DNA from: a virus
Virus record (IMG/VR): IMGVR_UViG_3300005529_000010
Location: 1-64,000 of that record
Direction: 5' to 3' (one strand)
DNA length: 64,000 nucleotides
The position numbers and the translations under genes were made by a program. Shown piece after piece: positions 1 to 58,315 of this stretch (position 1 is its first letter; each line of letters begins with the position of its first letter). Below the pieces are notes generated by a model, which saw only the letters and a list, made by a program, of their open reading frames with translations, was not told the DNA's origin and did not search any database.

Positions 1-946
1 AGCAGTGACCCCGGAAATGGGAATAGAAGAGCGGCCCGCCGTTGTCGGTGCGAAACACCGGCGAGTCGTCGTCGGCCGGCGTGGCTTCCATGTAGGCAAG
101 CAAGCGATCCATGAAGGAGCGCGGCACAACGACGTCGCGGTTGCCGGCCCGCGTTTTGGGGTTGTCGATCGCGATCGTGTCGGTGTCGGCGCGCTGCCGG
201 ATCTGGATCACGCATTGAGCCCCGAGCACATGCTTGCGGGCAAAGCCACGCATCTCCCCCGGCCGCATGCCGGTATAGGCCAAGGTCTCGAACATCATGC
301 GCCAGCGGCCCCAGGCGCTGCGGTGCCGGCGGAACTGGTGGTTCGCCATCTCGGCGACCATGTTGAACATCGCCGTCAGCTCGGGGGGCTCGGGAATCGC
401 GCACTCGTCATCACCGCGATCGTCCATGCCGATCTTGGGCACGAACTCGAACGGGTCATGCGCCATCAGCTCCCATTGCCGGGCTTCATGCAGGGCTTCC
501 CGAAAGCGGTCGAGCGCACGTCGGGCCTGGTCCCGGGTCTCGTTTTCCAGGAGCGAGGTCCGGATGGCCATCAACAGCGCTTTGTTGAGCTTCGTCAGTT
601 TGATATCGCCGACCCTTCGGCCGTCGTCTAAGACCAGGCCGATAACCTTGGCGCTCTCCATGCGGTAATGACGCAGCGAGCTTCGGCCGACCGGGGCCCG
701 ATCGCCGCGTCCGGTCGTCTCGCAGACCTTGAGCCAGTTCTTGAACGCCTCTTCAACCGTGATCGATTCGCGATCGGGGACGTATTCCGAGGCGCCGACC
801 GTCGACAGATGCGTGACGGCGTCCTTGCGCTTCTTAAAGTTCTTCGTGAACGGCCGACCCGTTTTCGGGTTGGCGCCCCACCGCGCCTCATAGGTTGTCT
901 TCCCCGTCCGCTTGCTGACACGCGGGAATATGCTGCTGCTTGCCAT
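1..946 (-). CDS. int: Tyrosine recombinase / phage integrase (C-terminus cut by window edge)
   Basis: Site-specific recombinase expected to join phage and host att sites through a covalent Tyr-DNA intermediate. The minus-strand frame is open from ATG at 946 to base 1 (315 residues seen). The N-terminus is basic and looks like an arm-binding domain (GKTTYEARW, residues 15-23), followed by a SAM-like core-binding region (about 62-165). The catalytic half starts with the box around YTGMRPGE, Arg228 being the expected first catalytic Arg, and Lys264 in NPKTRAGNR is the expected beta-hairpin Lys. The HxxR, second His/Trp and Tyr motifs would lie outside the window. It diverges from the 1046 gene, with an operator-type palindrome between them. 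Confidence 0.93.
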   Translation of the reverse strand, partial: MASSSIFPRVSKRTGKTTYEARWGANPKTGRPFTKNFKKRKDAVTHLSTVGASEYVPDRESITVEEAFKNWLKVCETTGRGDRAPVGRSSLRHYRMESAKVIGLVLDDGRRVGDIKLTKLNKALLMAIRTSLLENETRDQARRALDRFREALHEARQWELMAHDPFEFVPKIGMDDRGDDECAIPEPPELTAMFNMVAEMANHQFRRHRSAWGRWRMMFETLAYTGMRPGEMRGFARKHVLGAQCVIQIRQRADTDTIAIDNPKTRAGNRDVVVPRSFMDRLLAYMEATPADDDSPVFRTDNGGPLFYSHFRGHC

Positions 947-29604: not shown

Positions 29605-30648
29605 TTACCAGGCGCTTCCGCCGATGTTGTACACCCACGCTCCAGAGTTCGACTTGGCGCAGACCAAGTTGTACCCAAGAACGACGATCCCCTGCTGGCC
29701 GATCTGGCCAAGAGGAACCAGAGAATAGAAGCCCGAGAAATCGAGATTCGCGTCCTCCGATATGTACATGTTGAAGTATTTGAGGTTCGGGACGAACATC
29801 GAGCCCTTTGGCACGAAGTGATCCGCGAAGATCGGCACGCCCGAGACATTGAGGTTCGGGAAGCTCGACCGCGCCGGCGTTGAAATCTCGTACTGATTGC
29901 CGGGCCTGACGAACTGCTGCTCGGTCCCGATGAAGTCGGCGTTGAGCGTGGCGTGATCGGCCGGGTTCATGACCCCGAAGGTCGGCGCCTCGCCACCGGC
30001 GTTGTCGGTGATGTATTCCAGGACCGCCGCCATGGCCTTGCGGTTGAAGCCCAGCGTGTTCACCGAATAGGTGGAGAACTGGGTGGCCATGTTGATGTAC
30101 TGGCCCTGGAAAGCCGAATTGCCGGGCGCGTTGCGGTTGATGCCGCCGTAGGTCGGAACGTTCGTGCCGTTGTCGAACGCCTCGACGAAACCCTGCGGCA
30201 ATTGCAAATTGTTCGAATTGTTCGTGAACATCAGCCGCGCCATGTTCTGGCGGGTGACGGCGTAGGCGTCGTTCATGCGGGCCTTAAGCAGCGAGATCTC
30301 TCGCTCCGTGGCCTGGATGACCGTTTCGCCGAACGGCAGCGGGATCGGCACGACCCAATAGGCTGTCGCCCATTGCCCGTTCTGTATGCCCGGCGTGATG
30401 ACTGGCGAGTTGAACCCGCCGCCATAGCCGGTGAACTGGCCCTGCACCATCGACTGTCCCTGCATCGGGATCGTGATCTGGTTGAGGCCGCCGGCGGAAC
30501 GCTGTGCGTTGCCAAGCAAATAGAAGAGGGTCGCCGAAGCGAAATAGATTTGGACGAACAGCTTGGGCACGAACGCGCGGCGTGTGACCGCCGTCAATTC
30601 GTTGTACAGCCCGCCGGTCGGAACTGCGCCAATACCTGGTAGCGGCAT
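29605..30648 (-). CDS. Major capsid protein candidate
   Basis: 347 residues, good GGGAG ribosome site. It follows the scaffold-like gene and precedes decoration and connector genes, the usual place of the coat gene. Mixed alpha/beta with features such as TIPMQGQSMVQGQFTGYGGG and the C-terminal ILVF-rich strand GQQGIVVLGYNLVCAKSN. No sequence motif is diagnostic by eye, so the fold (HK97-like) is assumed from context. Confidence 0.75.
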   Translation of the reverse strand: MPLPGIGAVPTGGLYNELTAVTRRAFVPKLFVQIYFASATLFYLLGNAQRSAGGLNQITIPMQGQSMVQGQFTGYGGGFNSPVITPGIQNGQWATAYWVVPIPLPFGETVIQATEREISLLKARMNDAYAVTRQNMARLMFTNNSNNLQLPQGFVEAFDNGTNVPTYGGINRNAPGNSAFQGQYINMATQFSTYSVNTLGFNRKAMAAVLEYITDNAGGEAPTFGVMNPADHATLNADFIGTEQQFVRPGNQYEISTPARSSFPNLNVSGVPIFADHFVPKGSMFVPNLKYFNMYISEDANLDFSGFYSLVPLGQIGQQGIVVLGYNLVCAKSNSGAWVYNIGGSAW

Positions 30649-31438: not shown

Positions 31439-31870
31439 TCACGCGGCGGTGGGCATCGGGCTCGGCGCGGGTCCACCGCCGCCGGCGCCTTGCTGCTGCG
31501 CCGCTCGCATTTGAGCGATCTGCGGACCGGCCGAGGCCGACCGCAGCATCATGTTTTGAAGCTGATTCTTTTCGGCCGCCGGGTTGAGCGTGCCGGGTGG
31601 CGCGTGCTTCGCCAGTCGGCCGATCGCCTGATGGACGTCTCGGCCGACTTCCGAAGCGGTCCCCACAAGGGGGAGCGCCCGCTCCAATATCTGGACCGCA
31701 AGAGCGACCTGCTTGATGCCGGCCATCTCCATGCCGCGATTTTGCGTCGGCTGCGTAGCCGGGGAGGAGCCCATAGGCGGCTGACCCGATTGCGCAGCGG
31801 CGCCGGGGGGCGAACCACCCGGAGTCGCGGCCGGAGGAGCACCGGCATTCATGGTCGCGCCGTCAGCCAT
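31439..31870 (-). CDS. Pro/Gln-rich assembly-block protein
   Basis: 143 residues. The first 45 residues are disordered Pro/Ala/Gly (AGAPPAATPGGSPPG); a helical middle (MAGIKQVALAVQILERALP) and a second disordered tail follow. It may bridge portal and scaffold. Unknown family. A 261-bp gap with no gene of its own lies upstream (31871-32131). Confidence 0.55.
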   Translation of the reverse strand: MADGATMNAGAPPAATPGGSPPGAAAQSGQPPMGSSPATQPTQNRGMEMAGIKQVALAVQILERALPLVGTASEVGRDVHQAIGRLAKHAPPGTLNPAAEKNQLQNMMLRSASAGPQIAQMRAAQQQGAGGGGPAPSPMPTAA

Positions 31871-32131
31871 CGGCTAACAGCGACCCTTTACGCTTTTTCA
31901 TCCGATATCGGAGCATGGGGTTAGCGGTGCTTCCGACCGCGCCGACGATAGCGTACGTCCATGACGTGCCTCCGTGGGTTAAGGGTTGCGCAACGACCCG
32001 GGAACTCCTCGTTTCAACCGCCACCGGTCGGGCACACCCGAACCCGGAAGCAAATTGCCTGGGTCGTCTGCAATATTTACGGAGTGGCGTTATTGCCGAA
32101 GCTGGCGAAAGGTTGTAATTGACGCGTCGAG

Positions 32132-32347
32132 ATGACTTACGCTGTTCATCACTCGACAGTGGCGGCGAAGAAAGAAATCAAATGGATTTCGCCGAAGCGC
32201 GCCGCGACCATTCTCGGTAAAACGGTCGAGTGGCTGATGCGGGCCCGAAAAAAAGGGAGCGGCCCGCCCTATTACAATTCCGGTGGTCGCATTCAGTACG
32301 ATGAAGACGAAGTGATCGCGTTTCGGGATTCGTGGCGCCGCGAATGA
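32132..32347 (+). CDS. Helix-turn-helix (excisionase/MerR-like) protein on the opposite strand
   Basis: 71 residues. WISPKRAATILGKTVEWLMR and QYDEDEVIAFRDS match the HTH_17 layout of Xis-type DNA-binding proteins: HTH, a wing (GPPYYNSGGRIQY) and a short helix. It is the only plus-strand gene between 17 and 50 kb, ends one base before the portal stop and faces the portal gene. Upstream 261 bp may hold its promoter, which I could not define. It could be an excisionase or a late regulator. Confidence 0.7.
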   Translation: MTYAVHHSTVAAKKEIKWISPKRAATILGKTVEWLMRARKKGSGPPYYNSGGRIQYDEDEVIAFRDSWRRE

Positions 32348-34087
32348 TCAGCGGCGGTGGCCGCCGCTCTTCTCCAGCAATTTGATGAAGCCTTCCGGGT
32401 CGGTCTTCTGCAGCTCGGCCATCATCTTCTGCTGCTGCTCCGCGCGCTTCTTGATGCTCGCGTGCAGTCTCTCCTTATTCGGGAACGGCAGATTGTCGAC
32501 GGCATAATCCGGGTCGACGAACCCCGCCTTGAGACCGAACGCGATGAGCTGCTGATGATCGTCGGCGAAGATCGGCGAGCCCGAATGCCCATCGACGCAA
32601 ACGCGGTAATCGACCGGCAGGTCAGACAGCGTGAAGCTGGTATCGTCGATCGTCTTGAGCGACGAACCGTCGGTCCAGAAATTTCGATTTTCCTTCGCCT
32701 CCATCATGCGCAACCGGAGATGCGCGGCCGAGGCGCATTGGCGCTCGACGATCAGCGACCGATCGCGCAGCGTCGGGCTGCCGGTTTTCAGGAGCGTGTT
32801 CGCATGGACGCCGGCGCGCACACCCTGCTCGCCCTTGCCCTGCATCAGCGCTTCGAAGCCGCCGAGGCTGTCGATCGCGCTCATGACCAGCTCCATGAGC
32901 GGGATGATCTCCGGCGGAAACTTCGGCGTCAGGTCCGACACGTTCGAGCCGGCGACGCCGTTGAAGAATCCAGCCGAGCGCATCTGGTCGTAAGTCTCGA
33001 CCGTGATGCCGTCGAAGCCGGAGAACGCGAGGATCTTATCCACCTGCAGTCCTGCCAGGCGCATGATGTCGACGCAGATCGTCGACAGCCAACCCTGCGG
33101 CTCGATCAGATCGGTGATCTCGGAACGGCCCCAGATATAGCCGGTGACCGCGTTCGGCTGGATCAGCGTATAGGGATGCAGCCGGGTTTTGACCCGCGAT
33201 CCCATCAGCAGATTTTCGCGCTTGTAGCGCGTGATCAGCACATCGGGTTCGATGATCTGGATCGTCTTGTAATCGCCGTCATCGCCCCACACCCACAGCT
33301 CGTGCATTTTCACGAGATCAACACCCACCTCGGGGCCCATGATCGCGTAGTTCGGATCGTTGTTGAGCTGCACGATGCCGCCGGGCACCGGCCGCGTCAT
33401 GCCGACGTTGCCGGTGTTGAGCGTCGAGGTCGACAGCACCTGGTGCAAGAACGTGCTGAATTCGGTGTTCGTATTGCCGCGCTGCGCGTGATCCTTGATC
33501 CGCTTGAACAGCGTCGGCGCTTCCGGCATGTGGTAAACGCGCTTCCACACCTCAGGAAGCGACATAAGGGTCGTCTCGCACATGGCCGGCTGCTTGTCGA
33601 GGTCGGCCACGTCTTCGCGGTAGACGCCGAAATGCCATGGCATGACCAGGCGAGCGCTATAGGTCGGCTGGCCGTCGGGCTCCTTCTCCACCCATTGCTT
33701 GAGAATGGATGCGCCGTATTTCAGGCTTTCAAAAACACCCTGCGAAAAGGTGATGTCGGTGTTGTTGTGCTCCCAATCGCGCGACAGCACCTTTGCGACC
33801 ACCGCGCCGCGCTTCAGAATTTCTTCCGGATATTCGTTCTCGAAATCCACAGCGAAGCGAAGATCGGTCGGCGAGAACAGGTGAGAGGCCGCGCGATCGA
33901 CATGCTTGAAGAGCTTGTTGATCAGCGACCGCGTTCCGTCCTGGCGACCGGTCTCGACGATCGCGTTGATCTGCCGGCAGAACGCGGCGCGAATGCCCTG
34001 GCTGACCTGGCACGCCTCGATGTAATCGAGCGCTTCCTTGACGGCGCGGCGATTGTCGGGGGAGAGCGAGAGGACGGCGGCGACCAT
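32348..34087 (-). CDS. Portal protein
   Basis: 579 residues from ATG 34087. Located between terminase and scaffold genes. Predominantly helical at the start (NRRAVKEALDYIEACQ), a central mixed domain (MPWHFGVYREDV; EPDVLITRYKRENLLMG), and a long helical C-terminal segment (ASIKKRAEQQQKMMAEL) as in podovirus portals (T7 536, P22 725 residues). It would form the dodecameric DNA channel at one capsid vertex. Confidence 0.82.
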   Translation of the reverse strand: MVAAVLSLSPDNRRAVKEALDYIEACQVSQGIRAAFCRQINAIVETGRQDGTRSLINKLFKHVDRAASHLFSPTDLRFAVDFENEYPEEILKRGAVVAKVLSRDWEHNNTDITFSQGVFESLKYGASILKQWVEKEPDGQPTYSARLVMPWHFGVYREDVADLDKQPAMCETTLMSLPEVWKRVYHMPEAPTLFKRIKDHAQRGNTNTEFSTFLHQVLSTSTLNTGNVGMTRPVPGGIVQLNNDPNYAIMGPEVGVDLVKMHELWVWGDDGDYKTIQIIEPDVLITRYKRENLLMGSRVKTRLHPYTLIQPNAVTGYIWGRSEITDLIEPQGWLSTICVDIMRLAGLQVDKILAFSGFDGITVETYDQMRSAGFFNGVAGSNVSDLTPKFPPEIIPLMELVMSAIDSLGGFEALMQGKGEQGVRAGVHANTLLKTGSPTLRDRSLIVERQCASAAHLRLRMMEAKENRNFWTDGSSLKTIDDTSFTLSDLPVDYRVCVDGHSGSPIFADDHQQLIAFGLKAGFVDPDYAVDNLPFPNKERLHASIKKRAEQQQKMMAELQKTDPEGFIKLLEKSGGHRR

Positions 34088-34089
34088 GA

Positions 34090-34668
34090 TTACGATCCGG
34101 GTCCGGCGTTGCCGCGTCGCACGACTTCGAGCGCCGGGCTGTCCGTCACCAAGCCGCCCGCCGCAGCGTGAGCCCGTCGCAACATTTGGGATGTCCGCAG
34201 CCCGGCATACGGCTCGGGGCCCTGGCCGGTGGTTTGCGCATATGCCTCGCCGCCGGCGAACCCGACAGGCATGCCGCGCGCCTGCATCTCGGCCATGCGC
34301 CGTGTGACGTCGTTCGCCGGCATCGCTACAGCAGCGGTGTCGCCCTCGCGCAGATTGTCCTTGAGATCGGTGATCTTCATGTCGGCGAAGTCGGACTCCG
34401 GCTGGCCGGTCATCTCGGCGGCCGCCTCGATGCGCGACTGCGCCTCCGCCTCCATCATGCGGTATGTGGCATCGCCGGCTTTCGCCTTGTTCGTGCCGAT
34501 CATCGGCGCGGTGATCGCGGGGCTGAACTCGGCGGCCCGCTCTTCGGACTGCGTGTCGTATCCGCACAGCGGACAGAAACGCGGCGGAGCTGTGTCGGTC
34601 GACGGGTGGTGGAGGTGCGAGAACTGGCCGCCACACTCCGGGCAATTATATGTGCGAAGTTTCGCCAT
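34090..34668 (-). CDS. Zinc-ribbon protein between terminase and portal
   Basis: 192 residues from ATG 34668, TGATG overlap with terminase. N-terminal zinc ribbon YNCPECGGQFSH and FCPLCGYDT (two CxxC pairs, residues about 6-36), then helical and disordered parts. No terminase small-subunit signature, although the position would allow a role in packaging. Function unknown. Confidence 0.65.
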   Translation of the reverse strand: MAKLRTYNCPECGGQFSHLHHPSTDTAPPRFCPLCGYDTQSEERAAEFSPAITAPMIGTNKAKAGDATYRMMEAEAQSRIEAAAEMTGQPESDFADMKITDLKDNLREGDTAAVAMPANDVTRRMAEMQARGMPVGFAGGEAYAQTTGQGPEPYAGLRTSQMLRRAHAAAGGLVTDSPALEVVRRGNAGPGS

Positions 34669-36593
34669 CACCTGCGCCCTCTCCATTGAGCGCGCCGCAT
34701 CATAGCGAGTTGTGCTTGGCGCGCGCCAGCTTTTGCTTTGAAAAATGAATCCAATTGAGTTTGATTGAACATCGTTATTTGGTCTTTGATTGTCAGCCGC
34801 TTCTTGGCTTCTTCCTGCGCGCGCGTGCGACGGAAGGTGACCATCTCCTTGCGGGCGCGCTCTTCCCAGCAGCGCACGCCGAGCGCGAGCGAGATCACGC
34901 GATCATCTTTGTTGTTCTGTGACGCCTCGATCGAATCGCCCTCGCGCTGGATCGTCTTCATCTCCTCGATCGTGTCGTGCGATCGCAGACGAAGCATGCC
35001 GTTCGCGGTGAAATCGCGGAGGCGTTCCATCACGGCGACCTTGAGCTGAGCGGTCGTCTTGAAGTGCCAATTGTGGCCGGCCCCCATCGAGTCCGAGCGG
35101 TTGTAAATGTACTCCCGCACGTTGAAGAAAATGTTGCGCAGCCCCTTCTCGTCGATCGGCTTGGGCTGATAGCCGACCTGGATCTGATGCTTGAGCGATC
35201 GCAGCTCGTTCATCACCGCTTCGCCGGGACCGTTGATCTCCAGGATGAAATAGACGGTCGCCTTCCCATTGCCGCCGACGGTCGAATAGTGGCCGAGCAA
35301 AGACGCGATCACCCACGCGAACTGCCGCGTGTTGACGAGCGGCCAGGCATATTCGGCGACCTGGTCCATGCCATCGGCGTAGCAGCGCAACACCTGGATC
35401 GCCGAGCGATCGTTGTTCTCGTTGGCGCCGAAGGCGGGATCGGCCGCGATCACATAGACCGCGTCGTTCTCCGGCTCTTCCCACACCTTGAGCTGCACCG
35501 ATCGCGCGTTCGGCGCCGGATAGATGCTGGACTCGGCGAACTCGATTCCGGTGCCGTAGCTGTAGGTTTTGAATTTGTTGCTGACGTGATTGTTTTCCTG
35601 GTCGGTCAGAGATCCCGGATCGAAGAACGTGGCGCCGGTGACCTGGAAAGCCTCTTCCTCGGTCCACGGCTGTTCTTGGATTTCGAGCACGTCGCCCTCG
35701 AACTCCGCGTCGGCATCGCCGTCGGGCTCGGCGAGCGGGTCCATCTTCCAACGAATCCATGCGAGCTGTTCAGCCGTGACTTCCCAGCCGTAGCGATCGC
35801 GCACCTCGCGGATCTTCTGCAGCTCCTTGTCCGATGGCGGCTGCATGCCGTAGCGCAGGAAGTCGGGATGCTCGCGGGAGATGAACTGCGTGTCTTTGGC
35901 CCACCAGCCGATAAATATCGGGACCTGGTGCGAGGTGTCGGCTTTCGCCTCCCGCCACATCTTGTGCCACTGGTTGTAGCCGCGCGCCGTCGATTCCCAG
36001 AGATAGAGGCGATCGGGGTACTGGTCCGACAGCGAGTTCTCGAAGGCCGTCAGGCCCTCGGTATTGTCCCACGAGCACATCTCGCTCGCGTGAACGAAGT
36101 TGACACCGGCCGACCGACCGAGCACACCGGACGTCTTACCCGCACGCACGCCGGCCGAGGCGAAGTTGCAGATCGAATCGTTTTCGAGCTGCAGCATGGT
36201 CCGATTGTTCACGACGATGCCGGGGAAGTGCAGCGACTTCGGCAGGTTTTCCAGCATGACCGTCAGCTCGGTACGGGCGCGCTCTTTGTTGCCGTCGGTG
36301 TCGAACACCATGAAGCCGTTCAGGCCGTCATGGATGCCGATCCAGAACAGCGTGAGCGCGCGCGACAGCGTCGAGATTCCGAGCTGGCGAGATTTCAGAA
36401 CCTTGAAATCGTGCTTGTCCTGGCTGAGCCCGGAAAAGATGCCGTCCAGCAATCGCTGCTGAGCACGGTAGACGTGCTCGCCTAAAATAATCTTTCCTAA
36501 ATCTTTAGAGTTGACCTGGACGTACTGCAGGAAATTGAGGAATTCCTGTTCGAATATTTGAACCTTTTCTTTATTCCAGCCGCCGGTCAGCAC
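34668..36593 (-). CDS. terL: Terminase large subunit
   Basis: 641 residues from GTG 36593. Packaging motor ATPase and nuclease. Walker A-type KSRQLGIST (67-75), Walker B FVHASEM with Glu171, and coupling motif near LWESTARGYN (199-208). Nuclease domain acidic residues appear as Asp385 in AADPAFG, the Glu in FILEINGPG and Asp in DDRVISLALG. Directly followed by the zinc-ribbon and portal genes. The GTG start lacks a clear ribosome site and could be a few codons off. Confidence 0.92.
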   Translation of the reverse strand: MLTGGWNKEKVQIFEQEFLNFLQYVQVNSKDLGKIILGEHVYRAQQRLLDGIFSGLSQDKHDFKVLKSRQLGISTLSRALTLFWIGIHDGLNGFMVFDTDGNKERARTELTVMLENLPKSLHFPGIVVNNRTMLQLENDSICNFASAGVRAGKTSGVLGRSAGVNFVHASEMCSWDNTEGLTAFENSLSDQYPDRLYLWESTARGYNQWHKMWREAKADTSHQVPIFIGWWAKDTQFISREHPDFLRYGMQPPSDKELQKIREVRDRYGWEVTAEQLAWIRWKMDPLAEPDGDADAEFEGDVLEIQEQPWTEEEAFQVTGATFFDPGSLTDQENNHVSNKFKTYSYGTGIEFAESSIYPAPNARSVQLKVWEEPENDAVYVIAADPAFGANENNDRSAIQVLRCYADGMDQVAEYAWPLVNTRQFAWVIASLLGHYSTVGGNGKATVYFILEINGPGEAVMNELRSLKHQIQVGYQPKPIDEKGLRNIFFNVREYIYNRSDSMGAGHNWHFKTTAQLKVAVMERLRDFTANGMLRLRSHDTIEEMKTIQREGDSIEASQNNKDDRVISLALGVRCWEERARKEMVTFRRTRAQEEAKKRLTIKDQITMFNQTQLDSFFKAKAGARQAQLAMMRRAQWRGRR

Positions 36594-37311: not shown

Positions 37312-37407
37312 TCACCAGAACTTCAAGATGAAATGGGTGTAGGCGACAAGGATACCAACGATGTAGATGCCAAGAAGAACGAACGCGCCCTTGACCAGCG
37401 GGGTCAC
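37312..37407 (-). CDS. Membrane microprotein
   Basis: 31 residues, GTG 37407 overlapping the glycosyltransferase stop (GTGA). Single helix (KGAFVLLGIYIVGILVAY). Start-stop overlap supports translation. Confidence 0.45.
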   Translation of the reverse strand: MTPLVKGAFVLLGIYIVGILVAYTHFILKFW

Positions 37408-38171
37408 AGCGCGATCCCCTTCATTTGCAACAGGCGCTCGTAGATCGAGAAATCCTTGCAGTGCGTCAGGTAATCGATCCCATAGGGGAAGGCGTGCGCC
37501 AGGTTGTTGACCGTCACCCGATCGAGGTCGTTGCGCAGCCCGCGCAGCGGCAGGATGAACAGCTCGTCGCCGATCAGCCTCTCGAAAATAACCTCAGGGA
37601 TCGAGCCAGGCGTTAATGGCTCGTTTCCACGATTGGGCCAGTCGTATCGCTCGACGAAGCGTGATTTGCGCAGATAGGCGACGTCGAGGAACATCAGGCC
37701 GTTTTCGAGGAACTGATAGATCGGGTCCATCGGACACGCGGCGGCGATGCCGTGCCGAGCAAGCCTGTCGACGATCGGCGCGACCGGCCGCGTGAAGACG
37801 ATATCGACATCCTTGTACGCGATGAAGTCGTATTCGTGCTCGATCGCTATCTCGATGCCCCTGCATAGCGCCCGCCCCCATCCGTCCCGTCGTGTCGTGT
37901 TTAGGTGGCCGATATTGTCGGCGAATTCATAAATAGAATATTTCCGATTTTCCCTTCCGGTCCATCGTTGAAAGCCGTAGGGCTCCAAAAAGTCACGGGG
38001 CGGGGTCGGCGACGCGCTGTCGACGATCAGGATGTCCGTGTCCGGATTGAGATGCTGCGCCAGCCGCGCCCACAGCGTGACGAGCTTGGCCCCATAGCCC
38101 TGCGCGCCCTCGCCGACATAGGACGTGCCCAGGATGAGCGTGCGGGGCTTAATATCCTGGGAGGTGGTCAT
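37404..38171 (-). CDS. Glycosyltransferase-like protein (GT-A type)
   Basis: 255 residues. GT-A features: TLILGTSYVGEGA start, DILIVDSASPTPP, and YDFIAYKDVDIVFTRP holding a DxD-like motif (KDVDIVF, about residue 120). Later PMDPIYQFLENGLMFLD resembles acceptor-pocket segments. It would add a sugar to a surface or virion acceptor. Fourth sugar-type gene of the 37.4-42.8 kb block, separated from the other three by four small genes. Confidence 0.68.
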   Translation of the reverse strand: MTTSQDIKPRTLILGTSYVGEGAQGYGAKLVTLWARLAQHLNPDTDILIVDSASPTPPRDFLEPYGFQRWTGRENRKYSIYEFADNIGHLNTTRRDGWGRALCRGIEIAIEHEYDFIAYKDVDIVFTRPVAPIVDRLARHGIAAACPMDPIYQFLENGLMFLDVAYLRKSRFVERYDWPNRGNEPLTPGSIPEVIFERLIGDELFILPLRGLRNDLDRVTVNNLAHAFPYGIDYLTHCKDFSIYERLLQMKGIAL

Positions 38172-38367
38172 ACTTCCCCTCGATCTCCGTTGAAAGCGCC
38201 GTCCCCACCGAAGCTGAGTTCATGACCTGGTTGGCGAGCGCCTTGGGCACCCCGGCGTAGCGGGAAAATTTGCCGCTGATCCACATCACGACCAGCTCGC
38301 CGGTACTATCGTCCCAGCCGATTTTGCTTACGCGCTTGGAGAACACGTTGCGCATTTCCAAACTCAT
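38149..38367 (-). CDS. KTSC-domain protein
   Basis: 72 residues. Fits the KTSC domain: SKRVSKIGWDDSTGELVVMW, then SGKFSRYAGVPKALANQ and TEIEGKY, a small RNA-polymerase- or helicase-linked domain widely found in phages. Precise role unknown. Overlaps its neighbours by 23 and 62 bp. Confidence 0.7.
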   Translation of the reverse strand: MSLEMRNVFSKRVSKIGWDDSTGELVVMWISGKFSRYAGVPKALANQVMNSASVGTALSTEIEGKYDHLPGY

Positions 38368-38572
38368 GGGCGCGCTCCTGTTCGGGATGGGCCATTATTG
38401 CGTCGATGTTCTGTCGCACCCACGCGAGGGTCGCCGGCAGCCCGGCCTGCCGGTAGTAGGCGAGCACGGTTTCAGACGCGATTTTGATCGGCGCGTAATT
38501 GAGGAGCTGACGCAGCTCCGGAGGGAGCTGATCGTGAGCGGCCATTCGGCCCTCGACGCCGGCCTGAACCAT
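38306..38572 (-). CDS. Small hypothetical protein
   Basis: 88 residues from ATG 38572 (or 79 from 38545). Helical, LPPELRQLLNYAPIKI then ETVLAYYRQAGLPATLAWV. No motif. The overlap with KTSC is 62 bp, so the C-terminus of one of them may be functionally minor. Confidence 0.5.
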   Translation of the reverse strand: MVQAGVEGRMAAHDQLPPELRQLLNYAPIKIASETVLAYYRQAGLPATLAWVRQNIDAIMAHPEQERAHEFGNAQRVLQARKQNRLGR

Positions 38573-38573
38573 C

Positions 38574-38903
38574 TCATGCTCGGCCGACCTTCGGGGGCTC
38601 GACGCCGTAATTCTCGGCCGCGTCCTGCATCAGCTCATGCACGATCGGCCCAAGCACCGTGTCGTTGTCCTCGATCGTCTCGTCGGCGAACAGCAGCATG
38701 GGGATGCAGAGGATCGCGCCCTCCATCAGCCGCGAGCCGACCGGCACCTTCCACGCGATGATTCGCCGGCGCTCGGGATCATGCCCGCCGAGACCGCGGA
38801 ACTCCTCCAGCCGCTCGCCGGGCGCCGGCATGCGGATACGAAACTGCCGATCCGGATGCTCCTGGAAAAAGATGTTGTCGGCGACCTGGGCAAGCGCGCT
38901 CAT
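38574..38903 (-). CDS. Hypothetical protein
   Basis: 109 residues from ATG 38903 (ATGA). Mixed alpha/beta (FRIRMPAPGERLEEF, RRIIAWKVPVGS) with an acidic LFADETIEDNDT loop. Not recognised. Confidence 0.55.
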   Translation of the reverse strand: MSALAQVADNIFFQEHPDRQFRIRMPAPGERLEEFRGLGGHDPERRRIIAWKVPVGSRLMEGAILCIPMLLFADETIEDNDTVLGPIVHELMQDAAENYGVEPPKVGRA

Positions 38904-39322
38904 GTCGGACGCTCCTGCAAAATTTCCTTCGTGCGGTCCATCATGATCCGGCACCACCGCGCGGCCGCGTGCCATTCGTCATCACCGGTGACGAGCGCGC
39001 TCGCCCGGGCAACCTTGGCCAGACTTTGCGCCATAGCCTCGATCGTGTCTGTAATTTCGAGCTGCGCCCGCATATTGGCTGACCCGCGCTCGATCACCTC
39101 GCCAAGCGCGCGATCCACCTCCCGTTCCTGGCTCTCGTGCGCGTCGCGGCCGGCGTCGGTGATGACGTAATTGAACGCATCCAGCCCGTTCAGCAGGCCG
39201 CGCTGCGTGAGCGCGCGAACGGGCTTTTCCCATCGGCCGATCGGCGCGATCGAGCCGCCGCGCACGCAGATCTCCAGGACGGCCAGCTCGTCGGTCGTGA
39301 GCGGCTCGATGACTTCGCTCAT
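38900..39322 (-). CDS. Winged-helix-like protein
   Basis: 140 residues. The first 55 residues look like a winged helix (TTDELAVLEICVRGG, then VRALTQRGLLNGLDAF, YVITDAGRDAH). A long helix follows. Could bind DNA or serve as an adaptor. ATGA overlap with the TPR-glycosyltransferase. Confidence 0.55.
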   Translation of the reverse strand: MSEVIEPLTTDELAVLEICVRGGSIAPIGRWEKPVRALTQRGLLNGLDAFNYVITDAGRDAHESQEREVDRALGEVIERGSANMRAQLEITDTIEAMAQSLAKVARASALVTGDDEWHAAARWCRIMMDRTKEILQERPT

Positions 39323-40737
39323 ACCAGAATCCTCTGCCTGATCGCCTCGATGACGCGGTCCAGCACCGGCCGCCAGGCGCGGCTGTCGTCCTGCATGAAG
39401 ACGCGGTGTCGGGGATACCAGATCGCTCCATGCTTTTCGTCGCGGCCGATCCGGTAATCGTGGCCGTCCCGACTGTAGAGGACCCAGCACTCAACCTCGG
39501 CGGCGCCGCAGATATGGCCAAGCGACGTCTCGATCGTCACGACAAGGTCGAGATCGCGGACGATCTGCGCGGTATCGTGAGCGTCGCGGATGAAGGGCGC
39601 CAGGTCTTTGATCAACCCTTGGGCGCCGACGTCGTACAGGTCGCGCGCCCGCTCGCCGATCTGCAGGCTGTAGAGCTGCAACCCCGGGACCTTCGTCAGC
39701 TCCAGAAAGTCTGTGACCTTCATTGCCCGGTAACGTTCAAGGTCGTTGTTCGGGTCGCCCGCCCAACAGATTCCGACATGGAACTTGCGGCCCGGGAGCT
39801 TCCACGGGAACGTGGTTTCCAGGGGACGGTAAGGCACCGGCAAGCCTGGCGCCGTCTCGAACTCCTCGTCCGTCAGCCGATAGATCAGAGGCAGCGTCGT
39901 CAGCGAACACCAATAGTCGGCCGGCGGGATGTTTTGCTCCAAGGGCCCGATCAGCACGGTTTGCGTCTTGCCCATCAGCATGCCGGCGGCGAGCTTCATC
40001 AGCGGCGGGTGAAGCGTCAGGCACACCTGGCCACCATATTCGCCGATGCGCGGCACGAAGCGCAGATAGGAGAGCGCGTCGCCCATGCCTTGCTCGGCGG
40101 TCAGCAGCAACACCTTGCCGTCGAGCCGCTGCCCCTCCCATTTGGGATACGGCATTTGCCGGAAGTGGCGGTAGTTCCCTTGGCCGAAGCGGGACTCGAA
40201 ATGCAGCAGGCCGCGCATCCATTGCCGATCGAACAGGCAGGCGAACGCAAGCGCGAGTTCCGTGTCATCGTCGCCGCCAAGCTCCCACGCGCGCTGCGCT
40301 GCGTCGCACGCCTCTCGCGTTCGGCCGGTGATGGACTCGACGAGAGACAGATTCGACCACGACAGCGGCAAGTCCGGCTCCGCCCGGATCGCGGCGCGCA
40401 GCACGGTCTCGGCTTCGGCATAGCGCGCGGCTTCATAGAGCCGGTAGCCGAGATTGCAAAGGCACCGACCCCAGGACGGGTCCAGCTCGATCGCCCGGCG
40501 ATAACAGGCAATCGCGGCTTCGCGAAATCTGAGATCACCATTCGCGTTGCCCAGCTCGTACCAGCCCTCCTTGAAAGTCGGGTCGGTCTCGACGGCCGAC
40601 GACAGGAGCCGATACGCGGTATGGCGATCGGCCTCCGCCAGCTCGACGCCCTTCTGGCGCATGACGACCGCCTGGTTGTGATACCAGATCGCGCGGTTGC
40701 GCGGCGTGTCGGGGATCTCGATTTGCTGGTCCGTCAT
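39319..40737 (-). CDS. TPR-domain glycosyltransferase (GT9/GT41-like)
   Basis: 472 residues. About four TPR units (residues 15-170, e.g. GWYELGNANGDLRFREAAI, AIELDPSWGRCLCNLGYRL) precede a GT-B-type C-terminal domain with LLLTAEQGMGDALSYLRF, VGICWAGDPNNDLERYR and DLVVTIETSLGHICGA, the nucleotide-sugar-binding block seen in heptosyltransferase- and OGT-related proteins. TPRs may bind a protein acceptor. It follows the methyltransferase with ATGA overlap, so a shared pathway is likely. Confidence 0.8.
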   Translation of the reverse strand: MTDQQIEIPDTPRNRAIWYHNQAVVMRQKGVELAEADRHTAYRLLSSAVETDPTFKEGWYELGNANGDLRFREAAIACYRRAIELDPSWGRCLCNLGYRLYEAARYAEAETVLRAAIRAEPDLPLSWSNLSLVESITGRTREACDAAQRAWELGGDDDTELALAFACLFDRQWMRGLLHFESRFGQGNYRHFRQMPYPKWEGQRLDGKVLLLTAEQGMGDALSYLRFVPRIGEYGGQVCLTLHPPLMKLAAGMLMGKTQTVLIGPLEQNIPPADYWCSLTTLPLIYRLTDEEFETAPGLPVPYRPLETTFPWKLPGRKFHVGICWAGDPNNDLERYRAMKVTDFLELTKVPGLQLYSLQIGERARDLYDVGAQGLIKDLAPFIRDAHDTAQIVRDLDLVVTIETSLGHICGAAEVECWVLYSRDGHDYRIGRDEKHGAIWYPRHRVFMQDDSRAWRPVLDRVIEAIRQRILV

Positions 40738-41963
40738 GCGTGCAAATTCGGGGTTGGGAAATAGGTGAGAAACCGATCGTCCGAGTTCGGCCGAAGCGCT
40801 TTGATCTTGTCGACAATCTCGGCTTCCATATTCCAGGCGGGGATCAGGAACGCGATCTTGCCCATCTGATCGAGATGGCCGGGCGCCACGATCTCCGCGC
40901 CGCACGGGGCGATCTTGCCTTGCTTGAGCGGGTTGTCATCGAAGATGACGCCCAGCTCGACGCCGGCGAAATTCAGGAACGTCATGCCCTTTGCGGCCGC
41001 GCCGTAGCCCGCCGCGTCCCACCCTTCGCTTTCGAGCTTGACGAGCGTCGTGCGGACCCAATCGGCGGACTGCTGCGCACGCGTCTGCAGCGAATCGTAG
41101 ATATCCACCTGGTAATAACCGCGCCCCTTCTCGGCGTGACCCAGCTCGTAATCCTCGGCCACCTGGATCTCGGCAGCGCCCGGCCGGTTGATCAGCTCGA
41201 CCAGGTAAGACGTGCCGTGCACATCGACATGCGAGATCTTGTCGATGAACAAGCCGGCCCGCCGCGCGAGCGCGACCCACGAGCTGACGGTGAAGAACGA
41301 TAAATGTTCGTGGTAGCAGGTGTCGAACTCGCCGCGCTCGATCATGCGGGCCTGGCTCGTCTGGATATAAATCCGCCCGCCGGGCGCGAGCACCTGTTTA
41401 CAGAGCTGTAGAAAATTCAGTGGATTGGCGACGTGGCCGAGCACGTTCATCGCCACGACGACATCGTACGGCTCTTCGTCCGCGAGCAGCTCCACGACGC
41501 CGCGATGCCAATAATCGCAAATGGTCGGCACGTCGCCGCTGACCTTGAGGCCGATCGCAAGGTTCTGCGCAGGATCGACGCCCTGGACTTTGTGGCCGCG
41601 CGCCGCGAACGACCGCAACAACGTTCCGTCGTTGGACGCAATCTCCAGCACCCGGAACGGTTTATTAGGAGGAAATCCCTCCTCGACCCGGAAGACGAAG
41701 TCGGTGAAATAGTGCCTTAGGCTCGCGCTCGTTCCGCTGACATAGGGGTAGTCGCGGAACATCAGGTCGGGGTCGACAGACACCAGGTTCTGGCTGTGCC
41801 AGCACCGCACGCAGCGCTGCAGCCCGAGCGGGAAGGTCTTCAACGGCCCGTCGCCGCGCTCGCGGTAGGTGTTGGCGAGCGGCTGTTCGCCGAGATCGAG
41901 ATACAGCACCAGATCGCCGGCGCCACAGGCGAGGCATTCGTCCAGACGGATGAACCCTCTCAT
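40734..41963 (-). CDS. SAM-dependent sugar C-methyltransferase
   Basis: 409 residues. The three-part layout of NovU/TylC3-type enzymes: N-terminal zinc site (CLACGAGD and CVRCWHSQN), central class I SAM fold (VLEIASNDGTLLRSFAARG; YDVVVAMNVLGHV), and a C-terminal domain (GYGAAAKGMTFLNFAG). Such enzymes methylate a keto-deoxysugar nucleotide. Couples to the epimerase by ATGA overlap. Confidence 0.85.
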   Translation of the reverse strand: MRGFIRLDECLACGAGDLVLYLDLGEQPLANTYRERGDGPLKTFPLGLQRCVRCWHSQNLVSVDPDLMFRDYPYVSGTSASLRHYFTDFVFRVEEGFPPNKPFRVLEIASNDGTLLRSFAARGHKVQGVDPAQNLAIGLKVSGDVPTICDYWHRGVVELLADEEPYDVVVAMNVLGHVANPLNFLQLCKQVLAPGGRIYIQTSQARMIERGEFDTCYHEHLSFFTVSSWVALARRAGLFIDKISHVDVHGTSYLVELINRPGAAEIQVAEDYELGHAEKGRGYYQVDIYDSLQTRAQQSADWVRTTLVKLESEGWDAAGYGAAAKGMTFLNFAGVELGVIFDDNPLKQGKIAPCGAEIVAPGHLDQMGKIAFLIPAWNMEAEIVDKIKALRPNSDDRFLTYFPTPNLHA

Positions 41964-42799
41964 GGCGCGAAACTCCCGAGCGGCTGTTCGCGATGCAGCT
42001 CGACCAGGCCATCGACGATCGAGGCTGGAGTGTCCACCGGTGGAAAACCAGGGATATAAGTCGGCTCCATCGTGAAATCGTATGTCGGCGTCGGATCGTG
42101 CGTTTCGATCCTGGCGTTCAGCCGAGCCGCGACGAAATTAGCGAGCTTGCCGATCTGCGCATTGAAGCTCACCAGGTTGATGATCCCCGGCTCGACCCCG
42201 CCGCCCAGCAGACCCTCGACGCCGCTGCAGAGATCGCGCACGCCGAGGATCGGCCGCATCGCCTCCAGGTTGGACGCGTGCACGACTCCCGTTTCCAGGG
42301 CGCTCTTGACCATCGCCTGGATCACCATGTCAGGCCGCAGGTTGGGCGCGGCGCCGCACACGGTTCCAAAGCGCAGAACGTAGGTGTTTTCATAGATCGG
42401 CGGGATCAGCATCTCGGCCGCGATCTTGGTCAGATCATAGATGTTGCTGGGCCCGCCGAGATCGCGCGACAGCACCGACGCCGACGACGCGAACAGCAGT
42501 GGCTGGCCTGTGAGACGTCTGGTGACGTCGGCCAGCTCGGACACATTCTCGCGCACGGCGCGCGCCGGCTCGGCGACCGCGCGCCTGACGCTCGATCGGC
42601 CGGCAACCCAGATCACGGCTTCTATCTCTTCGAAATCGAAAGCGCGCGTCGCGCTGCACGAGCACTTCACATTTTCGGGGTTGGTACGGTTGCCGCGCTC
42701 TTCGGTGTCGACCGTCTGGACATCATGACCGCAGTCGGTGAGGTGAGCGAAAAGTGCGCTGCCGACATAGCCGCAGCCGCCGATGATCAAGATCTTCAC
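41960..42799 (-). CDS. NAD-dependent epimerase/dehydratase (extended SDR)
   Basis: 279 residues from GTG 42799 with GGGAG upstream. Rossmann motif GGCGYVGSALFAHL (GxxGxxG), NAD-binding VWVAGRSS-like region, and YDLTK (YxxxK, about residue 137-141). Acts on nucleotide sugars. First gene behind the operator-controlled promoter at 42.91 kb; its product probably feeds the methyltransferase and glycosyltransferase. Confidence 0.85.
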   Translation of the reverse strand: MKILIIGGCGYVGSALFAHLTDCGHDVQTVDTEERGNRTNPENVKCSCSATRAFDFEEIEAVIWVAGRSSVRRAVAEPARAVRENVSELADVTRRLTGQPLLFASSASVLSRDLGGPSNIYDLTKIAAEMLIPPIYENTYVLRFGTVCGAAPNLRPDMVIQAMVKSALETGVVHASNLEAMRPILGVRDLCSGVEGLLGGGVEPGIINLVSFNAQIGKLANFVAARLNARIETHDPTPTYDFTMEPTYIPGFPPVDTPASIVDGLVELHREQPLGSFAP

Positions 42800-42908: not shown

Positions 42909-42937
42909 AACGTACCGGACGATTTGTCCGGTGTGAA
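42909..42937 (-). promoter_or_regulatory. Promoter with operator site 5, head of sugar/late operon
   Basis: Minus strand: -35 TTCACA (42932-42937), 17-bp spacer, -10 TACGTT (42909-42914). The operator CGGACG-ATT-TGTCCG (42916-42930) fills the spacer. No clear terminator was seen between here and the terminase, so this promoter may drive sugar and packaging genes together. Confidence 0.75.
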
Positions 42938-42955: not shown

Positions 42956-43366
42956 TTATGTCGAGATCGTGGATAACTCGGCGGACAAATCGTCCGGTTG
43001 GTCGAAGAGCGTGTCGGCCAGCTCCTCGCCGCGACGATAGACGGCCATGTCGAGATGACCAGCGCGAACCATCTGGCGCCGCTGGTTGCGCGTGAACCGG
43101 TTGCGGATTTTCAGAAAGGCTCGTCGACAATCGAATGAGCGGCAGATCACCGGGCGCTTGTCATAGATCGTGCAGCCGGCATCGCCGAGAAAGAAGCAAT
43201 CGCCGTTCGGCTTGTGCTTGAGCACAGGAGCCAAGCCCGGACGTCTGGGGATGCCTTCTCTCACGCCGTCGCCATAGAGCGAAGGATCGTCGCCTTCGTC
43301 GATGTGCAGCGTGACGATCTCGTGCTTACAGCAGAGCGTGCAGCCGCCGCACGGAACGGCGGTCAT
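42956..43366 (-). CDS. YkgJ-type cysteine-cluster protein 1
   Basis: 136 residues, ATGA overlap with Rrf2 gene. CGGCTLCCKHE (CxxCxxCC, residues 6-13), CFFLGDAGCTIYDKRP and CRSFDC match the YkgJ/UPF0153 metal-chelating family, thought to bind zinc or iron. The 3' end of the gene contains operator site 6. The metal and biological role are unknown. Confidence 0.8.
   Translation of the reverse strand: MTAVPCGGCTLCCKHEIVTLHIDEGDDPSLYGDGVREGIPRRPGLAPVLKHKPNGDCFFLGDAGCTIYDKRPVICRSFDCRRAFLKIRNRFTRNQRRQMVRAGHLDMAVYRRGEELADTLFDQPDDLSAELSTIST
42982..42996. promoter_or_regulatory. Operator site 6 (CGGACA-AAT-CGTCCG)
   Basis: Lies inside the 3' end of the YkgJ-type gene, 66 bp centre-to-centre from site 5. 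No promoter elements flank it, so it may be an auxiliary operator for cooperative binding or looping. Confidence 0.65.
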
Positions 43367-43785
43367 GCGGCGCGCAGCGCCTCGGCCGACACCAGGAAAT
43401 CCGCGAGCGTGACCCGCCGCAGGTTTTCCTGAAAATGTGACACGAGCTGCGGAAAGATCGGCTCCAACAGCGCGGCCGCATCGGCGTTCAGGCCAAGATC
43501 GCGATCGGGCCCGACCTCCGTCGTGTTGACGCATTCGAGCACGTCCAGCATCGAAATTTCGTTCGCCGCACGCGCCAGTTGATATCCGCCCATTGGTCCA
43601 CGCAGGCCCTTGATCACGCCGCCCCGGGTCAAGCTCTGCAGCACCGGTTCGAGATAGCGGCGTTCGCTACCCATGAAGGCCATCAGCTCGGCCGCTTGGA
43701 TCGACCGGCCCTCTTCCTGGCGCGCGATGTGGATCATCGCGACCAACGTCAGCGCGTATTTTCTCGACATCTGAAACAGCATCAT
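43363..43785 (-). CDS. Rrf2-family transcription regulator
   Basis: 140 residues from ATG 43785 (AAGGAG upstream). Typical Rrf2 start LFQMSRKYALTLVAMIHIAR, winged HTH (IQAAELMAFMGSERRYLEPVLQSL, GVIKGLRGPMGGYQLARA). Only one Cys (about residue 92), so it lacks the three-Cys iron-sulfur site and is probably not a redox sensor of the classic type. Linked to a metal-binding YkgJ gene. Confidence 0.85.
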   Translation of the reverse strand: MMLFQMSRKYALTLVAMIHIARQEEGRSIQAAELMAFMGSERRYLEPVLQSLTRGGVIKGLRGPMGGYQLARAANEISMLDVLECVNTTEVGPDRDLGLNADAAALLEPIFPQLVSHFQENLRRVTLADFLVSAEALRAA

Positions 43786-47274: not shown

Positions 47275-47529
47275 TCATCCTTGCCCCCGGAACCAGGTCA
47301 GCGCCTCGGGCATCACTTTGAAGATCCGGAACAGCGTGCCCGGCTGCATTCCCGAATCCATAATGAACGATACATCGATCAGCCTCACCCACTCCCGGAG
47401 CTGCAGCCGCTCCAGCGCCCGTTGCATCTCAGGCGAAAGCACCCCGAGCCCGATCGGCACCGCAAATTTGTGCGTGTCGTCGGTCATCACCTTCAACACC
47501 GAATATTCGTCGCGCTCGTCTTCCGTCAT
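47275..47529 (-). CDS. Small hypothetical protein
   Basis: 84 residues from ATG 47529 (ATGA). Mixed alpha/beta (VPIGLGVLSPEMQRALERL; DVSFIMDSGMQPG). Unknown. Confidence 0.55.
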   Translation of the reverse strand: MTEDERDEYSVLKVMTDDTHKFAVPIGLGVLSPEMQRALERLQLREWVRLIDVSFIMDSGMQPGTLFRIFKVMPEALTWFRGQG

Positions 47530-48134
47530 GCCGGCACCGGCCACGCAGAGTTCTCCGGCACACTGATGTTCGACCGGGTTTCGAACCAATCGCCGTTCGG
47601 ACTCAGCCCCGGAGCGAGCACCAAAAACGCCTCCCACGAGCCGATGCGGACCAACGTCGCCATGCCGAACATCCGCGCGATCTCTTCGATCGCCCGCCGG
47701 ACGATCGGCGCCCGGTAGGCGTTGGGAAAGCGCGGGTCGACCCAGAGCTGGATGACGCTGCGCTCCTGCGACTCCCCGGTCACATTGTTCCGGAGCGCGA
47801 CCGAGTCGGTCATCATGTCGAAAATCACATGGCTGCGACGCGGCTGCAGCTCCTCAGGCCATTCCTTCGTCGCGGCCCACAGGCACGACCAGGCCGAGCA
47901 CGAGAACGGTCGATCGGCATAGATCGCGCAGCCCTTGCCGCCCATCGCGTGCTGGCACCAGATCCCGGCTGGCTTCTCCAGCTCGGCGACCGGCAGCACC
48001 CGGCAGCACAGCGTACAATCACCGCACGGCCGCTGACTCGGATTGCCGACGACCTTGTGCTTGCCGGGCTTGGTCGGATGCGGCTCCAGGGTCAGGTTGA
48101 GCCACGGCGCCGCCGCCTTGTCACCGAATGCCAT
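47526..48134 (-). CDS. YkgJ-type cysteine-cluster protein 2
   Basis: 202 residues from ATG 48134. CGDCTLCCRVLP (CxxCxxCC, about 37-44), WCQH, GCAIYADRPFSCSAWSCLW match the YkgJ/UPF0153 family; the C-terminal 90 residues are extra. Second member in this genome, only distantly similar to the 42956 gene. Probably binds zinc or iron. Confidence 0.78.
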   Translation of the reverse strand: MAFGDKAAAPWLNLTLEPHPTKPGKHKVVGNPSQRPCGDCTLCCRVLPVAELEKPAGIWCQHAMGGKGCAIYADRPFSCSAWSCLWAATKEWPEELQPRRSHVIFDMMTDSVALRNNVTGESQERSVIQLWVDPRFPNAYRAPIVRRAIEEIARMFGMATLVRIGSWEAFLVLAPGLSPNGDWFETRSNISVPENSAWPVPA

Positions 48135-50333: not shown

Positions 50334-50789
50334 ATGACTGACACAGCGGCGAATTCTCAAATAGAAAAGCGGCGATTTATTCGCGTGCCCCGAAAATTTG
50401 CGCGTTCCATTGTTCCCCGGAGAACTCCGACCCGGGATAATTTAATCAATCGGGCTCTTTTCCTTTTGCTGCCATGGGAGTTTCGGGACTATCCGGGCAT
50501 TTACCGGGGATCGGCCGAGTTGCTCGGGATGACGGCTGATTCGATCCGGCAATATCGCAAGGGTCGGCGAGAAATATCGGGCCCGATGGCTCGCAAGCTG
50601 TCAGCGGCGATTAAGGCGCGTTTTTCTCAGGCGGAGAAAATTATCGCCGAGCTTGATGCTTATGCTGACGGTTGGCGAGATGGGCGGGGGCGACCTGCTG
50701 GGTTTTGCGTGGTTCGGGATCGCGGCGGGCTTATGACCGACGGGAGACCGAAGCGAGCGCCATTGAGGGAGCGTCGAGGGAAGGGCTAA
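50334..50789 (+). CDS. HTH-containing hypothetical protein
   Basis: 151 residues from ATG 50334; an in-frame ATG at 50244 would add 30 residues. Basic N-terminus, then ELLGMTADSIRQYRKGRREI resembling an XRE HTH, a helix KLSAAIKARFSQAEK and a basic tail. It may be a regulator. The gene is AT-richer than its neighbours, hinting at separate origin. Confidence 0.6.
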   Translation: MTDTAANSQIEKRRFIRVPRKFARSIVPRRTPTRDNLINRALFLLLPWEFRDYPGIYRGSAELLGMTADSIRQYRKGRREISGPMARKLSAAIKARFSQAEKIIAELDAYADGWRDGRGRPAGFCVVRDRGGLMTDGRPKRAPLRERRGKG

Positions 50790-58042: not shown

Positions 58043-58279
58043 TTACTCGGCAGCCTCGGATTGGGGTGTTTCGGGGTCGGTTGTGGCTTGGGTTTTCAGG
58101 TTCTCAAAAAAGTCCATGGCGACCATGCGGCCGTGGCTAGCAAATTGCTTAATCAACGGAACGTGCCAGCGAAATGGAACGTTATTCCGCTCACGCCACT
58201 TTCGGACCGCCTCGGGATGGACGCCCAGCTCGCGGGCGCACGTTTCGATCAGTCCCCATGAACTCTCGTGAGATGCCAT
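58043..58279 (-). CDS. HTH regulator of the divergent switch (Cro/repressor candidate)
   Basis: 78 residues from ATG 58279, leaderless as the -10 ends 8 bp away. HTH at residues about 10-35: IETCARELGVHPEAVRKW, then VPFRWHVPLIKQFASHG, a Cro-like layout. It has no dimerisation domain beyond the HTH. Divergent from the XRE gene with operator site 11 between them. Confidence 0.7.
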   Translation of the reverse strand: MASHESSWGLIETCARELGVHPEAVRKWRERNNVPFRWHVPLIKQFASHGRMVAMDFFENLKTQATTDPETPQSEAAE

Positions 58280-58286
58280 GGCCGGC

Positions 58287-58315
58287 ACAATCGTACAATC
58301 TGTCCGGTCGGTCAA
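58287..58315 (-). promoter_or_regulatory. Promoter with operator site 11
   Basis: Minus strand: -35 TTGACC (58310-58315), 17-bp spacer, -10 GATTGT (58287-58292). Operator CGTACA-ATC-TGTCCG (58292-58306) has one mismatch. The start point would fall at or next to ATG 58279, giving a leaderless mRNA. Confidence 0.7.

Follow-up and report, generated by a model that had tools for sequence, protein, structure and literature searches.

A terminase-linked TPR-glycosyltransferase cassette as a candidate protein glycosylation system of uncultivated temperate phages

The virus record IMGVR_UViG_3300005529_000010 comprises 64,826 bases, of which nearly all (positions 1 to 64,000, referred to here as the window) were analysed with respect to a cassette of sugar-modification genes lying ahead of the terminase gene. 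The cassette is encoded on the minus strand and extends from 42799, the GTG start of an epimerase-like gene, to 37404, where the last glycosyltransferase-like frame ends, and this is exactly the span proposed in the initial annotation. Its genes encode, in this order, a short-chain dehydrogenase/reductase (SDR), a 3-C-methyltransferase, a glycosyltransferase with tetratricopeptide repeats (TPR-GT), four small proteins and a GT2-like transferase, and are followed by terminase, portal and capsid genes (Table 1). The assignment to sugar modification made at that time was borne out by the match of the first protein to PF01370, by the complete architecture of the C-methyltransferase and by the homology of the TPR-GT. 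ATGA overlaps were found at four junctions (epimerase/methyltransferase, methyltransferase/TPR-GT, TPR-GT/orf140 and orf140/orf109), so the overlaps behind the translational coupling described earlier are real; as the sign of a special unit, however, coupling was dropped, because overlaps of 4 bases are ordinary among the gene calls of the window and occur in 15 of 55 same-strand minus neighbour pairs.

The GTG start of the SDR gene is preceded by gcagggagacacc. The protein exceeds the PF01370 cut-off and keeps the GGCGYVG (GxxGxxG) and YxxxK motifs of this family, and its sequence is compatible with either an epimerase or a 4-keto reductase. In the methyltransferase, the zinc-binding N-terminal domain, the S-adenosylmethionine domain and the C-terminal domain PF08484 are all present and all above the curated cut-off. 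It matches the structures of D-mycarose 3-C-methyltransferase and TcaB9 (TylC3/TcaB9 kind) over the full length (4rv9, E 7e-45), and the YHEH region, the catalytic region of sugar 3-C-methyltransferases, is preserved in an alignment with 4rv9-type enzymes. The predicted substrate is a 4-keto sugar linked to a nucleoside diphosphate (NDP). The phage enzyme shares full-length homology, the three-domain architecture and the YHEH motif with TylC3 and TcaB9, but those make antibiotic sugars, whereas here the enzyme is paired with one that resembles protein glycosyltransferases.

TPR-GT carries TPR repeats at its N-terminus (TPR_2, E 2.8e-11 in Pfam). Its C-terminal half was assigned by homology only, namely to bacterial proteins of which some are annotated as TPR-containing glycosyltransferase family, and with these relatives the phage protein shares about 30% identity across 90–97% of its length. 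EQGxGD, GxxWxG, LD and four tryptophans are invariant in an alignment of ten sequences. The highest hydropathy mean of TPR-GT is 1.22, which fits a cytosolic protein without a membrane segment, and clear membrane segments are absent from all cassette enzymes (their highest Kyte-Doolittle 19-window mean is 1.60). FlmG has been described as cytosolic, with flagellin bound by its TPR domain and the sugar transferred by its GT-B domain (PMC7591256). TPR-GT likewise unites an N-terminal TPR part and a C-terminal glycosyltransferase part in one chain, the latter of similar length (281 residues versus 288 in FlmG), and is homologous to annotated bacterial members of the family over the full length; the likeness to FlmG itself is one of domain layout and length. 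In contrast to FlmG, TPR-GT is phage-borne, lies by the terminase gene and has a 3-C-methyltransferase in place of nonulosonic-acid genes, and no nonulosonic-acid enzyme was found among the cassette proteins in a Pfam scan. Three bacterial copies of TPR-GT were inspected, of which one lies beside a giant calcium-binding protein and type I secretion genes and a second adjoins FkbM/GT2/GT4 genes, so that two of the three adjoin likely substrates or sugar genes. A scan of genome contigs for TPR-GT gave 9 loci that matched chiefly via the TPR part and was set aside.

The last cassette protein, a transferase of 255 amino acids (family GT255), had been annotated as a further glycosyltransferase, and its place proved exact, while its identity as a glycosyltransferase is retained as a weak GT2 family signal. 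It had no match at E 0.01 in Pfam or PHROGs, no relatives in phage records, viral contigs (single-sequence scan), plasmids or NCBIfam, and a sole PDB match at E 0.91. PF00535 (Glycos_transf_2) was matched by three of six family members, with 2.9e-5 as the best value and 0.021 for the window copy, and the family retains a YDxxxxxxxD segment along with DxD or ExD. Against PDB, the family profile matched nothing but de novo TIM barrels and short stretches that look like chance; in profile comparisons, the probability was 41% with the GT-A proteins of the relatives described below and 0.7% with their RGP-like proteins. A family scan yielded 32 loci. Where a member lies beside KTSC/terminase with at least 1.5 kb of upstream DNA, TPR-GT was read just upstream in nine of nine loci (L028, L183, L185, L188, L190, L192, L206, L212 and L213), in addition to the window. 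In L184, where 1.7 kb precede the match, two GT255 copies and no TPR-GT are present, but the first copy is only some 1.1 kb away from the end of the contig. L187 and L201 are truncated. The remaining members fall outside this phage clade. The family is two-copy in L184, L203 and L207 and is also present in many phages outside the clade.

Table 1. Coordinates of the cassette and of related features in the window
Feature	Coordinates	Strand	Remark
Extended-SDR NDP-sugar epimerase/4-ketoreductase	41960..42799	-	PF01370 Epimerase, E 3.6e-18
NDP-sugar 3-C-methyltransferase	40734..41963	-	PF08421+PF13489+PF08484, E 3.7e-12 to 6.2e-20
TPR-glycosyltransferase (TPR-GT)	39319..40737	-	TPR ~1-190; glycosyltransferase domain ~192-472
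orf140	38900..39322	-	Conserved small gene between TPR-GT and terminase
orf109	38574..38903	-	Conserved small gene between TPR-GT and terminase
orf88	38306..38572	-	Weak DUF6525 similarity, below cut-off
KTSC-domain protein	38149..38367	-	Kept at same place across clade
Divergent GT2-like (GT-A) glycosyltransferase, GT255	37404..38171	-	Weak PF00535 signal in family
Terminase large subunit	34668..36593	-	Downstream, same run as cassette
Portal protein	32348..34087	-	Homology to annotated portal in L003/L004
Major capsid protein	29605..30648	-	~72% identical among clade members aligned
Operator-like dyad O1	42916..42930		Within putative promoter, minus strand
Operator-like dyad O2	42982..42996		Inverted copy, 66 bases upstream of O1; near 3' end of CxxCxxCC gene
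Tyrosine integrase, 5' part	1..946	-	Continues across record junction to record position 64417

The cassette was then compared among relatives (loci are designated L with a number). A terminase search with the window sequence returned one phage, L002, and a search with the TPR-GT pair returned L002 again and three more (L016–L018). A terminase profile search of viral contigs gave 240 relatives, of which the best 80 were analysed. Duplicates (L065 and L067) were dropped and the window, L002, L016, L017 and L018 were added, giving 82 rows, of which 47 with at least 4.5 kb upstream of the terminase were kept and 35 were dropped as too short. With a presence cut-off of 50 bits, TPR-GT was found in 44 of the 47 loci, and in 42 of 45 when loci chosen by terminase alone were counted, i.e. 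without the window and L016, which were not returned by the terminase scan. Of these, L034 scored only 70 bits and L105 was matched in three pieces. Among the 34 rows with at least 9 kb upstream, TPR-GT was present in 33, GT-A in 28, an RGP-like glycosyltransferase in 27, a dehydratase in 25, a recombinase in 24, FkbM in 16, the GT255 family in 5 and SDR and methyltransferase of the window type in 3; the window-type set is complete in three phages (the window, L028 and L029). The partner genes of TPR-GT come in at least two sets, of which the one designated type A is common. In type A (L002, L016–L018) the order is RGP-like glycosyltransferase, GT-A-like protein, dehydratase/epimerase, serine recombinase, TPR-GT and FkbM methyltransferase, followed by orf140, orf109, KTSC, terminase and portal, so that the cassette occupies the place it has in the window, with mostly different partner genes. 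The RGP-like glycosyltransferase has PDB relatives at E 1e-28. The GT-A-like protein has no Pfam or PDB family, and its name rests on GT-A motifs.

Within the four type A relatives, TPR-GT is 79–85% identical, portal 86–90%, the recombinase 59–77%, and the sugar-making genes and other transferases 47–72%; terminase is 77–83% identical in three of them, L016 being excluded from this range as its terminase holds an insert. This insert of about 330 residues lies in frame in the large subunit (L016 13994–16912) and appears intein-like (ends VPTHN). The rate of nonsynonymous substitution (dN) was below that of synonymous substitution (dS) for every cassette gene in the four relatives, with dS often above 1 and thus near saturation. 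Over 49 phages, mean identity was 49.2% for TPR-GT and 57.3% for terminase, and the rank correlation of the pairwise identities was 0.66. The cassette is a mark of a large clade of uncultivated phages, which is new here, and no account of a TPR-GT that is near-core and terminase-linked in a phage clade was found in the open-licence papers searched. The enzymes belong to known families; what is to our knowledge new is their setting and the arrangement of one constant and several swappable genes. A search with the major capsid protein retrieved among named phages only two uncultivated records at 34% identity and had no match in plasmids.

An operator at the cassette promoter had also been proposed in the initial annotation, and it was recovered as the dyad CGGACAnnnTGTCCG, which occurs with at most one mismatch at 12 sites in the window (986, 6501, 15852, 16450, 42916, 42982, 45976, 46955, 49040, 51387, 58292 and 58747), two of them ahead of the cassette, compared with a mean of 0.33 and a maximum of 2 in 30 sequences simulated by a first-order Markov model with the dinucleotide composition of the window. 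The sites are located at the starts of operons (986, for instance, separates the integrase from a divergent gene), and the dyad centre is outside called genes at 11 of the 12, though 86% of the window is called coding. By visual inspection, a putative cassette promoter lies around 42916 (TTCACA-17-TACGTT), with a score of 8 of 12 that falls short of the promoter-scan threshold. Hexamers resembling promoter boxes border the dyad at several sites, but only weakly at 42916; 51387 and 46955 are two of the four promoter-scan hits, and a strict TTGAC is found within 24 bases upstream at 5 of the 12 sites. The dyad is not specific to the cassette, as it is also present at about ten other phage promoters, and such a set, which might be bound by a repressor, recalls stoperators or the regulon of one repressor. 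Two small helix-turn-helix (HTH) frames with weak P22_Cro and HTH_3 matches, at 50337–50789 (plus strand) and 58043–58279 (minus strand), are candidates for the phage switch. The dyad at 58292 lies 13 bases ahead of the ATG of the latter frame. An Rrf2 regulator gene (43363–43785) is located directly ahead of the cassette; its protein was considered as the dyad binder, but the genome-wide spread of the dyad argues for a phage-wide regulator. From the cassette, 27 genes run on the minus strand down to 16969, including terminase, portal and capsid, and no further dyad (at most one mismatch) is found between 42916 and 16464, in keeping with the earlier claim that the cassette heads the late operon, although a gap of 573 bases (31774–32348) inside this run could hide another promoter.

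With one exception (L104), the dyad of the window is not found in the relatives. They have a dyad of their own, GTAGTnnnnnnnACTAC, with 39 sites in these loci (36 distinct); 28 of them are preceded by TTGAC at a distance of up to 24 bases, which holds for 1.8% of random stretches. Many of these dyads are located at the dehydratase stop codon, just ahead of the recombinase and TPR-GT, and others lie ahead of the first transferase. Type A cassettes thus likewise carry operator-like dyads at promoters, with a different sequence, which strengthens the claim of regulated expression. Alternatively, the serine recombinase might act at the GTAGTnnnnnnnACTAC dyad, but positions away from the recombinase (L016 654, 2880 and 3972; L074 9178) favour an operator. 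The recombinase of the type A cassettes is small (L002 4279–4986, L016 8949–9656, L017 8058–8762, L018 8702–9412) and, next to the GTAGT dyad, may shuffle sugar genes.

The last 90 bases of the record repeat its first 90, so the record probably represents a circular map of some 64.7 kb. Read over this junction (window 946 to 1, then to record position 64417), the tyrosine integrase is complete, which marks the phage as temperate. On the plus strand, 59975–61342 encodes a recombination directionality factor of the Gp3-like type (PF18897), though the integrase is of the tyrosine kind, and this protein had no match in the records of four relatives (L002, L016–L018).

From these data, the cassette is interpreted as a phage-encoded, FlmG/OGT-like cytosolic protein glycosylation system that is co-expressed with virion genes and most likely modifies a virion protein, and we consider the chance of this to be about even (roughly 0.5). 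The methyltransferase would methylate C-3 of a nucleotide-linked 4-keto-deoxysugar of the host and thereby create a branch, and the epimerase-like SDR would complete the sugar by epimerisation or 4-keto reduction. TPR-GT would then hold the protein by its TPR domain and transfer the sugar in the cytosol, as Caulobacter FlmG does, and the GT2-like enzyme may lengthen the glycan. An operator shared by about a dozen phage promoters would keep the cassette off in the prophage and switch it on with terminase, portal and capsid, and because expression would go with these genes, a virion protein is the best guess for the target. More tentative is the extension to the clade, in which temperate uncultivated soil phages would possess near-core protein glycosylation with a constant TPR-GT, a swappable sugar module, an operator switch and a virion target.

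Several observations weigh against this interpretation. Conservation is lower in the TPR half than in the glycosyltransferase half (mean identity 40.0% versus 55.1%; 1,176 pairs from 49 sequences), and TPR-GT diverges more (43–44% identity) than terminase (64–67%) when the window is set against its nearest relatives; therefore the substrate and the sugar may change between phages. That the substrate is a virion protein is in itself something we infer. AlphaFold models were poor (mean pLDDT 45 and 38) and were set aside as evidence, and so was the fold search made with the first of them, in which the match to OGT (TM ~0.3) rests on the TPR part. The glycosyltransferase half alone had no sequence match in PDB, and the third bacterial copy of TPR-GT lies in an ordinary metabolic region and departs from the pattern of substrate or sugar-gene neighbours. 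TPR-GT is missing in L059, L061 and L100 among the 47 loci, and no cassette gene was present in the stretches read of the 35-kb Manatee Spring relatives L003, L004 and L182 (terminase 36–38% identical), so the cassette may mark the 60–67 kb branch.

Other roles of the cassette have to be considered. The gtr O-antigen conversion cassettes consist of sugar transferases carried by temperate phages, and a cassette of this type was ruled out here, as no flippase, bactoprenol glucosyltransferase or Gtr-type membrane transferase was found among the cassette proteins in Pfam and PHROGs scans; the operator at the head and a position atypical of lysogenic conversion are further differences. Glycosyltransferases of marine phages are usually read as acting on the host O-antigen, and those of uncultivated phages often as modifiers of the host surface (PMC7029224). 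Accordingly, the cassette might alter a surface or envelope glycan (lipopolysaccharide (LPS) core or O-antigen) late in infection and block superinfection or re-adsorption. Exchangeable sugar genes would fit changing surface glycans, and cytosolic transferases can act on LPS core. This target is weakened, however, because clear membrane segments, a flippase and Gtr-type enzymes were not found in the cassette and TPR-GT resembles cytosolic protein glycosyltransferases; moreover, a TPR domain is unnecessary for lipid acceptors and TPR-GT stays constant while its partner genes change, which leaves a host-surface role rather improbable. With a similarly low probability, flagellin, a large adhesin or another host protein might be glycosylated in the infected cell or lysogen, with effects on motility or receptor masking. 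FlmG, the best studied TPR-GT, glycosylates flagellins (PMC7591256), and in one bacterium the gene of a relative neighbours that of a giant secreted protein, but the cassette is part of the virion operon, co-directional with terminase and capsid, and the operator at its head argues against expression in the lysogen.

The remaining two explanations are much less probable. The genes might be mobile cargo without a phage function (morons), moved in type A by the serine recombinase, as a recombinase in the similarity range of CcrB/XisF lies within the cassettes of the relatives and at least two cassette types occupy one place. dN below dS in every cassette gene of the four relatives, though with dS near saturation, the high prevalence of TPR-GT among the loci and the lack of any resolvase found in the window make this very unlikely. 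Least probable is a hypermodification of phage DNA by glycosylated bases as a protection against restriction. DNA glycosylation by phages does occur (PMC7029224), but no base-hypermodification gene was recognised among the scanned window proteins (about 40 of some 90 calls). Moreover, known DNA-glycosylation pathways are not known to use a TPR-linked transferase or a sugar C-methyltransferase.

Virion glycosylation of phages is known from few systems. In mycobacteriophages Che8 and Rita, phage-coded glycosyltransferases have been reported to decorate the major capsid protein (PMC11256854). The likeness to these is one of description, and the setting differs, as their genes are placed near the 3' end of the genome, whereas here a TPR-linked transferase and a sugar-making cassette lie ahead of the terminase. 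In a podovirus from Manatee Spring (MW202512.1), a homologue of TPR-GT (25.5%) is encoded directly behind the capsid gene, and genes of the FkbM-type methyltransferase and GalT-like kinds come next, but this podovirus belongs to another phage lineage and has another gene order. If a virion protein is indeed glycosylated by the cassette, protein glycosylation would be a basic trait of these phages, and a tractable FlmG-like enzyme would be at hand with its substrate probably encoded in the same operon. The reasons for sugar-coated particles, such as stability, receptor choice or escape from particle-binding defences, would also become testable. What was a guess from one window is now a comparative data set.

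Near the cassette head, a CxxCxxCC protein (YkgJ-like, PF03692) is encoded at 42956–43366, and a cysteine-rich protein at 47526–48134, without a Pfam match, resembles it.

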